A stretch of DNA of 29,580 bases from a virus, in IMG/VR virus record IMGVR_UViG_3300046542_000377, positions 1-29,580 of that record. One strand, written 5' to 3'. Below the pieces are notes generated by a model. The model saw only the letters and a list, made by a program, of their open reading frames with translations. It searched no databases and had not been told where the DNA came from. Position numbers and translations under genes: made by a program. Positions 20,008 to 28,441 of the stretch are shown piece after piece (the first letter of the stretch is position 1; every line of letters starts with the position of its first letter).

Positions 20008-20023
20008 CTGTTTATCCATACAG
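20008..20023. promoter_or_regulatory. LexA (SOS) box candidate upstream of the adenine methylase
   Basis: CTG-TTTATCCATA-CAG has the CTG-N10-CAG layout with an AT-rich middle; reversed it reads ACTGTATGGATAAACAGG, very like known SOS boxes. It ends 17 bases before the methylase ATG, so bound LexA would block transcription there. A closely similar box lies at 23389. Confidence 0.75.
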
Positions 20024-22883: not shown

Positions 22884-23005
22884 CTAGACTGCAATCGGCT
22901 CGAATGAAATTTTAAATTGACCATCGTTAGGATTACCTATGGCGATCCTGAAATCATCTCGGGAAAACACCCCTAAGCTATAGGGTGTGGCGTAAAGCCA
23001 GCTAC
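22884..23005 (-). pseudogene. C-terminal remnant of an unidentified gene
   Basis: A short frame reads SWLYATPYSLGVFSRDDFR and then IAIGNPNDGQFKISFEPIAV before a stop. It looks like real coding sequence but has no start codon with a ribosome binding site and is preceded by a stop in frame. It probably is the tail end of a gene whose 5' part was lost. The family is not recognised. The rest of 22800-23000 shows no feature. Confidence 0.4.
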
Positions 23006-23370
23006 TCGATCAGGTGGAAATCGTCACGGTTCTTGGGATCCATTGTTCCGCCTCGGCAGTTTTGACCCCGCATGGGCTTCAGCCCTGGGATAAATACTAG
23101 GCCCTCTGCTTCTAAGGCAAACGACAAGGCCTGCATCGTGACCTGTCGCAATATCTACCGTCCTTCTTCAAGGTCTCTGATCGCCTTGACTGAAACCCCG
23201 GACCGGAATGAGAGTGCCTCTACTGACCAGTTCACCATTGCGCGGGCGGCGGCGCAGTGGGCTGACGAGAAGGACGGCGGTAGGTCATCCATGAATGGGG
23301 CAGGTCCCCATTCGACTCCCGCCTCCTTTAACGCTCTTATCTGTTCAAGTTTGATAATTTTCGCCGTCAT
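23002..23370 (-). pseudogene. HTH transcriptional regulator interrupted by an amber codon
   Basis: Read from ATG 23370 there are 71 codons ending LEEGR, then TAG, and the same frame continues ILRQVTMQALSFALEAEGLV and FIPGLKPMRG to a TAG at 23002. The pattern ARAMVNWSVEALSFRSGVSVKAIRDLEEGR is a Cro/CI-type helix-turn-helix, and the text after the stop is the normal C-terminal continuation of such regulators (ALEAEGLVFIPG). So a single in-frame nonsense codon splits an otherwise intact 122-codon gene. GAGGA lies before the ATG, and a near-perfect LexA-type box sits 18 bases further upstream. A truncated 71-residue protein might still bind DNA. Confidence 0.78.
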
Positions 23371-23388
23371 CACACAATCCTCAGAATA

Positions 23389-23404
23389 CTGTTTATTTGT
23401 ACAG
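23389..23404. promoter_or_regulatory. LexA (SOS) box candidate upstream of the HTH gene
   Basis: CTG-TTTATTTGTA-CAG; read on the minus strand it is TACTGTACAAATAAACAGTA, an excellent match to the CTG-N10-CAG SOS consensus with flanking TA on both sides. It lies 18 bases before the HTH start. It shares CTGTTTAT and TACAGTAAAG with the box at 20008. Confidence 0.82.
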
Positions 23405-23551
23405 TAAAGCGCGCAGGCGGGAACGATTCTAGAGCCCTACTTTGAAACTGGTGAGTCACGGTAGTGCAGAAATGGGAGGGGCGGAGGTGATGATGGGGGA
23501 ATCGGCCGGCAGGACGCGGGAATATTTCAGGAGGTGGAGTGTTTAGGTGCG

Positions 23552-23699
23552 GGTGTCTGTTCAGTTCATATGGAGTCTGCGAAAAACAGAAACAGACACA
23601 TTAACAGACACCTTGTTTTGGCGCGGGGTAGGCTGGAGGTCTTGAAAATAGTGGAGCGAGTGAAGGGAATCGAACCCTCGTTATCAGCTTGGGAAGCTG
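23552..23699. repeat. Type 2 att-like repeat, copy 1: tRNA-Gly(CCC) 3' fragment plus arm sites
   Basis: Bases 23652-23699 are, on the minus strand, the 3' part of tRNA-Gly(CCC): anticodon arm CAGCTTCCCAAGCTG, T-arm GAGGGTTCGATTCCC and the CCA-ending acceptor end TCGCTCCA. The 5' half is missing, so it is not a functional tRNA. To the left are GGTGTCTGTT (23552), AACAGACAC (23591) and AACAGACACC (23603), spaced like integrase arm sites. The arrangement recurs at 26664-26810 with 47 of 48 tRNA bases identical. This is the mark of integration into a tRNA-Gly gene. Confidence 0.82.
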
Positions 23700-25704: not shown

Positions 25705-25920
25705 TTAGCTAAAGTCTAATCCTTTAAGGCGAGCTAAGCCTTGTTTAATATGACCTGCGTTTTCACCGATTGTGCAGAGTGCCGCACGCACGTTCTCGCC
25801 CACTTCGGTAGCGTTTTCCCGCTCAGCACACAATGTTAGCTCCATCGCAGCCGCTTCCAGCGCTAGTTGATTTTGATAAATCCTTTCAAGTACGTCCACC
25901 AATGAATATTCGCTCGCCAT
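25705..25920 (-). CDS. 71-residue helical protein, copy B (part of a shortened type 1 repeat)
   Basis: This is a full-length relative of the copy at 21430: YSLVDVLERIYQNQLALEAA, MELTLCAERENATEVGEN and AGHIKQGLARLKGLD. The identity is high across the whole length, and the similarity continues about 45 bases past the start (25921-25967, including GCATAGCAGCG) before it ends, so the TAGGGCA arm region is missing here. GGAG lies before the ATG. The protein is intact while copy C is broken, so the family may be under selection. Function unknown. Confidence 0.72.
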   Translation of the reverse strand: MASEYSLVDVLERIYQNQLALEAAAMELTLCAERENATEVGENVRAALCTIGENAGHIKQGLARLKGLDFS

Positions 25921-26150
25921 GGTTACCCGACTCCATTCGAAAGATCTACAGCATAGCAGCGACAGTGTTCGGGAGTGGAGCCGAAAACGCTTGCTTAAAA
26001 TTTGCTACGGCGGGTGATGAAGGGCCTAGATCTAACGACGCGTGATGCGTCACGGTACTAAATTGGTACGGGGCTTTTAGAGTAGTTCTTTGGGCCTTTA
26101 TTTCCGGGGGCGGTGCTAGTAGTTAGTCCAATCCATCATGAGCATGGACG

Positions 26151-26460
26151 TCAATCCGGAAGGCCGCCAACGATAGCCAGGGTGATACCCAGCTTGGATG
26201 CACTACCGTCAATTGTTGCTTGGCGATCAGCTTCGGTTTCTTCTTCTGTAGCTACAAAATGGCCACCGTCAATGGACGGACTGGCTTCGAAGCCATTCGG
26301 CGAGGCCCACGCGCACCAACGGTCGGAAAGTGAGCAATACGCCCGCAATAGTAAGGATTGCTCCTGAACGCCCAAACCAATGCCACTGATTTGACCAAAG
26401 GCTAGCAGCGGCCGACGCCAGCACAATCAGCGCGCTGGCGGCAAAAAGGAATTCAATATT
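26151..26460 (-). pseudogene. Frameshifted remnant of a small membrane protein
   Basis: On the minus strand one frame reads EFLFAASALIVLASAAASLW and GAILTIAGVLLTFRPLVRVG, two clear membrane helices, up to a stop near 26270. The adjacent frame continues SIDGGHFVATEEETEADRQA and GSASKLGITLAIVGG. Joined, they give one membrane protein with a frameshift in the middle and both ends missing. The rest of 25968-26150 shows no gene. Confidence 0.6.
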
Positions 26461-26663: not shown

Positions 26664-26810
26664 GGTGTCTGTTTCTATCCGTTCTGAATCTGAGAAAGCC
26701 AGAAACAGATACCTTAACAGACACCTGGTTGACGCGGGGTAGGCTGAAGGCCTTGAAAATAGTGGAGCGGGTGAAGGGAATCGAACCCTCGTTATCAGCT
26801 TGGGAAGCTG
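26664..26810. repeat. Type 2 att-like repeat, copy 2: tRNA-Gly(CCC) 3' fragment plus arm sites
   Basis: Bases 26763-26810 repeat the tRNA-Gly(CCC) 3' fragment seen at 23652 with one difference. GGTGTCTGTT (26664), AACAGATAC (26704) and AACAGACACC (26716) are the arm-like sites. The two copies bracket 3.1 kb that holds the TIR and DUF3825 genes. The sequence right of 26810 is not the tRNA 5' half, so a complete tRNA must lie elsewhere, probably to the right. Confidence 0.82.
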
Positions 26811-28018: not shown

Positions 28019-28441
28019 ATGAAGTCGCCTCGAATGTGATGCCTAGCGGAGATCCGCCCCCCATGAGCCGAGACAGGCCTTGATTGATATGACCAGAGTT
28101 TTCACCAAACGCCTCCAGTACACCGCGAATACCACCTACCTACGTCTGCTGAGCTGCGCTGTTCCACCCAAAGCGTCAGTTCCATTATCGCCGCCTCCAA
28201 GGCGAGCTAATTGTGGCAAATCCTTTCCAGCACATCGGATAGTGAGTATTCATTTGGAATGGGTCGACTCCTTTCGAGAAATCCCAAGCATAGCAGCGGT
28301 AGTGATGAAGATGGTTTAGGGCAAAATGAGGGCACATTAAGGGTCGCTACGGACCGCAGGACGCCACGATTCGAAGACGAAAGCGCCGCAATTTCCGGCC
28401 TTAAGCGGCCTACAAGGATGCTAGAAGGGATTCGAATCCCT
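28019..28441. repeat. Type 1 repeat, copy C
   Basis: About 423 bp matching 21406-21830. It holds a broken copy of the 71-residue gene, then TAGGGCA at 28317 and TGAGGGCA at 28327 with the same spacing as copy A, and ends in the 16-bp palindrome AGGGATTCGAATCCCT, which resembles but does not exactly fit a tRNA T-arm. It marks another probable att remnant. Confidence 0.65.
28065..28260 (-). pseudogene. 71-residue helical protein, copy C, degenerate
   Basis: The frame reads NEYSLSDVLERICHN, then TAG where copies A and B have CAG (Gln), then LALEAAIMELTLWVEQRSSADVG. A small indel then shifts frame before the IRGVLEAFGENSGHINQGLSRL part. The start codon is ATT rather than ATG. So three independent lesions inactivate it, in contrast to copies A and B. 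Confidence 0.8.

Follow-up and report, generated by a model that had tools for sequence, protein, structure and literature searches.

Is a regulator gene that lies behind an SOS box and is interrupted by one in-frame stop codon a recently broken gene, an intact gene misread in the record, or a gene that works in a shortened form? This question was raised by a gene in a virus record of IMG/VR, 29,580 bases long, the whole of which was analyzed and is referred to here as the window. We addressed it by examining the interrupted gene, its relatives, and their genomic positions.

A LexA-Type Box and an Interrupted Regulator Gene

The window proteins that we tested, located at ~0.9-21 kb, matched phage portal, tail, endolysin, and methyltransferase families, and the window is a Pseudomonas prophage fragment in which the regulator gene lies behind a LexA-type box. 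The elements of this gene are as follows.

23387-23406, minus strand: LexA-type (SOS) box TACTGTACAAATAAACAGTA, with its core CTGT-N8-ACAG at 23389-23404, 31 bp upstream of the GTG
23155-23373, minus strand: XRE/HTH_3 regulator gene through the in-frame TAG, with 71 codons from ATG 23370 or 72 from GTG 23373 and then the stop
23155-23157, minus strand: in-frame TAG, opposite which a sense codon or a gap stands in the aligned relatives
23002-23154, minus strand: remainder of the regulator gene past the TAG, with 50 codons and a normal stop (23004-23002), homologous to relatives and low in dN/dS
22971-22985, minus strand: terminator-like hairpin 3' of the regulator gene, a pattern match only

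The first-pass annotation had described a nearly ideal SOS box, an HTH regulator, and a frame that reads on coherently after a single TAG, and our analysis bore out each of these points. The box showed three mismatches to a 20-base pattern defined by us, TACTGTATATAAAAACAGTA; it was the single match in the window, compared with 0.00 in 100 shuffles, and relatives carried a box at the same distance. For the core pattern CTGT-N8-ACAG, the window had two occurrences where 0.22 were expected; a count of two was reached in 1 of 100 shuffles. The regulator ORF starts at GTG 23373 or ATG 23370, and its whole frame (23373-23002) is interrupted by this one TAG only. When the TAG was read through, the resulting protein (P0001) matched HTH_3 (PF01381) at residues 42-84 with 24.1 bits, above the Pfam gathering cut-off of 23, and the 50 codons beyond the TAG aligned with the relatives down to the last residue. 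Terminator-like hairpin patterns numbered four in the region versus 1.2 in shuffles, and the similarity of the window to a locus titled Pseudomonas sp. (L002) extended as far as 22971.

Relatives of the Regulator and Their Boxes

Relatives were detected in 222 of the 398 sampled genomes of the genus to which G001 belongs (E ≤0.001, with the TAG read as Q). The loci compared below were the best matches of each search, with no random draw, and L001, L009, L010, and L011, which represent one and the same locus, entered the counts as one. In a tree built from 27 members, seven chromosomal-type rows were separated from 20 phage-type rows (100/100), and the window was placed with L007 (97/89). In 19 of the 20 phage-type loci having upstream DNA, a perfect box began 28-34 bp before the matched stretch, the exception being L019 with one mismatch (L004 had no upstream DNA); in all 17 chromosomal-type loci, it began 98-108 bp before that stretch. 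As a control, we checked the other ORFs of ≥90 aa that were called mechanically in the same contexts. Of these 341 ORFs, 13 had a perfect box within 120 bp; the 13 comprised five dam genes, three ORFs sharing the box of dam, three sharing the box of the regulator, and two others, one of them SRAP-like by eye. These results indicated that the CTGT-N8-ACAG box close upstream of the gene is conserved in the relatives, a sequence feature of the LexA regulon.

The chromosomal-type relatives (L012, L013, L027-L041) shared a common box, CTGTACAAAAACACAG, ~100 bp upstream (17/17), and two clusters of neighboring genes recurred in all four contexts read. In PMC8544851, P. fluorescens SBW25 was scanned with a LexA pattern, to which CTGTACAAAAACACAG did not conform by eye. 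Outside these genomes, tblastn of GenBank phages gave no match at 1e-5, a search from which near records were possibly left out, and a plasmid search with the L006 protein gave 15 records, one of which was covered over at least 80%. The gene family was not named in the titles and abstract openings of the literature searched, and may nonetheless be published.

Age and Cause of the Stop

After the stop, dN/dS between the window and eight relatives was 0.095-0.145, compared with 0.106-0.220 for the six intact pairs listed; before the stop, the corresponding values were 0.20-0.41 and 0.07-0.39. The bases unique to the window comprised one silent and one changing difference before the stop, and no silent and two changing differences after it. 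Thus, the dN/dS values indicate that the codons past the stop still show purifying selection, and because their dN/dS resembles that of intact pairs and the window-unique bases are few, the stop should be either young or an error. The recent mutation suggested in the first-pass annotation was supported to this extent, by full-length relatives and by a post-stop dN/dS like that of intact copies, but an error in the contig would look alike.

Alternatively, the contig may carry an error of sequencing or assembly and the real gene may be intact. In keeping with this, the TAG is the sole interruption of a conserved frame and few other changes follow it, and exact-pattern scans of IMG/VR around the TAG matched no sister contig, so that no second record with this codon was found. 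Nothing direct speaks against such an error, since a true recent mutation would look identical; we consider it unlikely, with an appreciable chance of being right. We propose that the window gene, one copy of a conserved XRE-type regulator under a LexA box, has probably been inactivated by a recent nonsense mutation; the stop itself has the look of ordinary decay.

A third explanation, in which the TAG is read through or suppressed and some full-length protein is made, would account for the preserved post-stop frame with its low dN/dS. The preserved frame is, however, explained by recent mutation, and the relatives have a sense codon at this position. The first-pass annotation had proposed looking for suppressor tRNAs, but ARAGORN detected no tRNA gene in the window and hence no suppressor tRNA there, and TAG terminates 4 of 28 other window genes checked. 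A suppressor tRNA or recoding was rejected on these grounds, and we regard read-through of any kind as extremely improbable.

Broken genes were found at 2 of 21 phage-type loci, the window and Pseudomonas marginalis (L003). The product of the P. marginalis copy stops at residue 72, and its similarity to the family ends at the same place, where the sequence diverges. On the far side of this break, only G002 itself matched in 194 genomes, G111 matching in the gene part alone, and an exact 20-mer spanning the break had no match in IMG/VR. The 5' part of the window gene was nearest to L007 and L003 and its 3' part to other relatives; the window gene may be a mosaic near the stop. Two breaks at one place may reflect chance or a recombination-prone spot.

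Predicted Consequences of the Stop for the Protein

AlphaFold modeling of the read-through sequence (27 rows) gave a mean pLDDT of 77.5, with residues 1-5 and 18-29 below 50, and predicted helices at 8-16, 36-46, 50-57, 61-68, and 76-87. The TAG, codon 73 of P0001, cuts the HTH_3 match, so that the domain is incomplete in the encoded product, which ends at residue 71, before the predicted fourth HTH helix (76-87). The 71 encoded residues thus keep the first three HTH helices and lack the fourth as well as the conserved C-terminal tail, in which several positions are nearly invariant among the relatives. Judged from this predicted model, the short product, without the fourth helix and the tail, is unlikely to be a stable DNA-binding protein.

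The first-pass annotation had considered this 71-residue N-terminal part as the DNA-binding product, possibly a damage-inducible truncated repressor that could interfere with related prophage repressors. A working short product of this kind would agree with the intact SOS box and start region, and the P. marginalis copy, which ends at a near-identical residue by a different route, could hint that a short form is tolerated or useful. The loss of the predicted fourth helix and conserved tail argues against it. Furthermore, the gene was uninterrupted at 19 of 21 phage-type loci (the window being counted), the opposite of homologues that all end at this position, and the post-stop part was more constrained than the pre-stop part in 13 of the 14 pairs listed, with L005-L006 as the exception. 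We therefore find an interfering repressor unsupported and any working short product very unlikely.

Position in Prophages and Proposed Function

A second perfect box in the window is associated with a phage methyltransferase gene.

20008-20023, plus strand: another perfect SOS box, immediately 5' of the dam-like phage gene
20032-20835, plus strand: phage D12-class adenine methyltransferase (dam-like) gene, on the strand opposite to the regulator

To compare contexts, four phage proteins of the window (dam, endolysin, Rz-like, and tail protein) were searched for around 18 of the 21 phage-type loci, all but L020, L022, and L023. One or more of the four were encoded downstream, on the strand opposite to the regulator, in 15 of the 18 phage-type contexts and in none of the four chromosomal-type contexts; L043, L051, and L057 had none of these markers. 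The dam gene was present in 12 of the 18 contexts, within ~6.2 kb, and had its own perfect box in 11 of these 12, L005 at a contig edge being the one without a box. These results indicated that the phage-type branch marks the cargo end of prophages, beyond the lysis and dam genes, along with an SOS-boxed dam.

S24 and integrase proteins were examined at 12 loci, which came from 11 genomes or records. An S24 (LexA-like) protein scoring above the Pfam cut-off was encoded 29-40 kb downstream on the same strand at nine of them, counting G143, where no phage marker was present in the context and the 40-kb pairing may be due to chance. G313 had no such protein on its contig, and the G001:C1 copy, which is without phage markers, had none near it; in G111 the nearest S24 protein, at 36 kb, belonged to a 208-residue group found in most host genomes looked at and was not counted. 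Other neighbors included umuC-like genes in L052 and L056 and SRAP-like genes in L042, L052, and L053, named by eye and clustering, and UmuD-like S24 matches were found in G133 and G196. The names umuC, SRAP, and DUF4065 are tentative ones, assigned by eye from sequence, whereas the UmuD-like S24 proteins were identified by family matches. In L043, an ORF at +793 from the regulator was DUF4065/SocA antitoxin-like by eye and had a perfect SOS box of its own.

We propose that in intact relatives LexA would silence the regulator gene in the quiet lysogen, and that DNA damage would release an HTH protein of ~122 residues, which would act in trans on host promoters or on those of the prophage cargo region. 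Intact members would accordingly be putative damage-induced XRE regulators of such promoters. Transcription of the window copy would remain inducible by damage, but its translation would end within the HTH domain; the product would most likely be unstable and inactive, and the regulator role would be lost. LexA binding, damage induction, loss of function, and the targets are all points that we infer.

tRNA-Gly Core, Repeats, and Attachment Sites

On its upstream side, the window regulator is accompanied by two elements reminiscent of an attachment site.

23652-23697, minus strand: attachment-core-like 3' end of tRNA-Gly(ccc), 46 nt with one mismatch to the core defined from relatives
23553-23611, minus strand: direct repeats GTGTCTGTT and inverted repeats AACAGACAC beyond the core, similar to arm-type integrase sites

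The same arrangement, in which the regulator start lies 0.27-0.31 kb from the tRNA-Gly(ccc) 3' end and the GTGTCTGTT/AACAGACAC repeats follow the core, was observed at eight distinct close loci (the window, L002, L003, L005, L006, L042, L045, and L047), and the near-constant spacing of the repeats suggests arm-type integrase sites. One of the two direct repeats was left in L006, and in L007 the repeats were present beside a degraded core. The block from core to gene end aligned in one piece in L002, L005, L006, L042, L045, and L047. Searching with the 551-bp stretch from core to stop matched 94 of 293 genomes; only G002 and G111 matched over most of its length, and the remaining genomes mostly matched little beyond the tRNA end.

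Attachment repeats at a tRNA gene were identified in three of the six prophages or contigs tried: in G351 the outer repeats lay at tRNA-Cys, 5.1 kb upstream of the regulator, with the tRNA-Gly core still adjoining the gene, and in G274 and G230 they lay at tRNA-Ser, 3.6 and 1.5 kb from the regulator, respectively. The other three gave only a 23-bp match (G133), a match away from any called tRNA (G228), or none (G003). The tRNA-Gly core may be left over from an older attachment site, because no second core with up to 10 mismatches was found in the DNA examined near the G001:C5 integrase end or further around the G111 copy.

Because of the tRNA-Gly link, we also considered that the intact family might be an attachment-linked factor that steers excision upon DNA damage, through recombination directionality or its control, rather than a general transcription regulator. 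Besides the eight tRNA-Gly-linked loci with their evenly spaced repeats, this is suggested by L043, in which the gene lies inside a 4.2-kb stretch flanked by two tRNA-Gly(ccc) genes and without phage markers. However, the core may be a relic, as noted above, the outer repeats of G351, G230, and G274 are at other tRNA genes, chromosomal-type members occur without phage markers, and none of the family matches listed was named an excisionase; we consider an excision factor rather doubtful. A broader scheme is a Pseudomonas-wide LexA-box XRE family, with one branch at prophage or island attachment sites and one chromosomal, that would couple host damage to excision or to defense and repair cargo and that the window copy has just lost; this too we think improbable. 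We thus retain damage-induced regulation of prophage-cargo or host promoters as the proposed role of intact members. An SOS-boxed regulator with relatives in over half of the sampled genomes is more interesting than the stop itself, if only mildly so, and raises the testable question of what damage switches on at the cargo end of Pseudomonas prophages besides induction.

The tRNA-Gly core with arm-type-like repeats occurred in two copies in the window (23573-23699 and 26686-26810), 3.1 kb apart. Between them lay a TIR gene (PDC-S66/ThsB-like) and a DUF3825 gene, and beyond them an Abi_alpha gene (PDC-S47), an array that looks like defense cassettes accreted at one attachment site. Window positions 26167-26328 matched DNA directly beside the tRNA-Gly 3' end in L095 (G142) and are possibly host flank that became enclosed in the array. 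Two more direct-repeat pairs of ~40 nt were located at 25727-25967 and 28066-28304, with spacings of 2339 and 2337.

Comparison with Known Systems

Tum of phage 186 and similar proteins are LexA-controlled antirepressors. Like Tum, the family is encoded by a LexA-box gene of temperate phages that lies apart from the repressor; unlike Tum, it has an XRE HTH, and an extra antirepressor may not be needed because an S24 protein is encoded 29-40 kb downstream at 9 of 12 loci, which weakens a Tum-like role. Mobile elements also carry LexA-controlled DNA-damage cargo, such as umuDC and SRAP/yedK-like genes, and genes resembling umuC and SRAP adjoin some family members; the regulator differs from such cargo in that it apparently forms a unit of one gene, with a box and a terminator-like hairpin of its own.

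The controller proteins of restriction-modification systems (C.Kpn2I, 4yba; C.AhdI, 1y7y; and C.Esp1396I) offered the closest comparison. C.Kpn2I was the best sequence match of solved structure (E 3.9e-5, profile residues 33-96) and also headed the Foldseek list (E 8.2e-3, probability 1.00), in which no fold match reached E 0.001, and the PADLOC profile "Control_protein" matched the family with E 6.1e-5. No restriction endonuclease was recognized by eye among the neighbors listed for family members. Unlike these controllers, the family has an extra N-terminal stretch (in the phage type) and a conserved C-terminal tail, and it sits under a LexA-type box. By these comparisons, the family is a little-known one of putative XRE regulators that are nearest in sequence and fold, though by weak matches in both, to the restriction-modification controllers.
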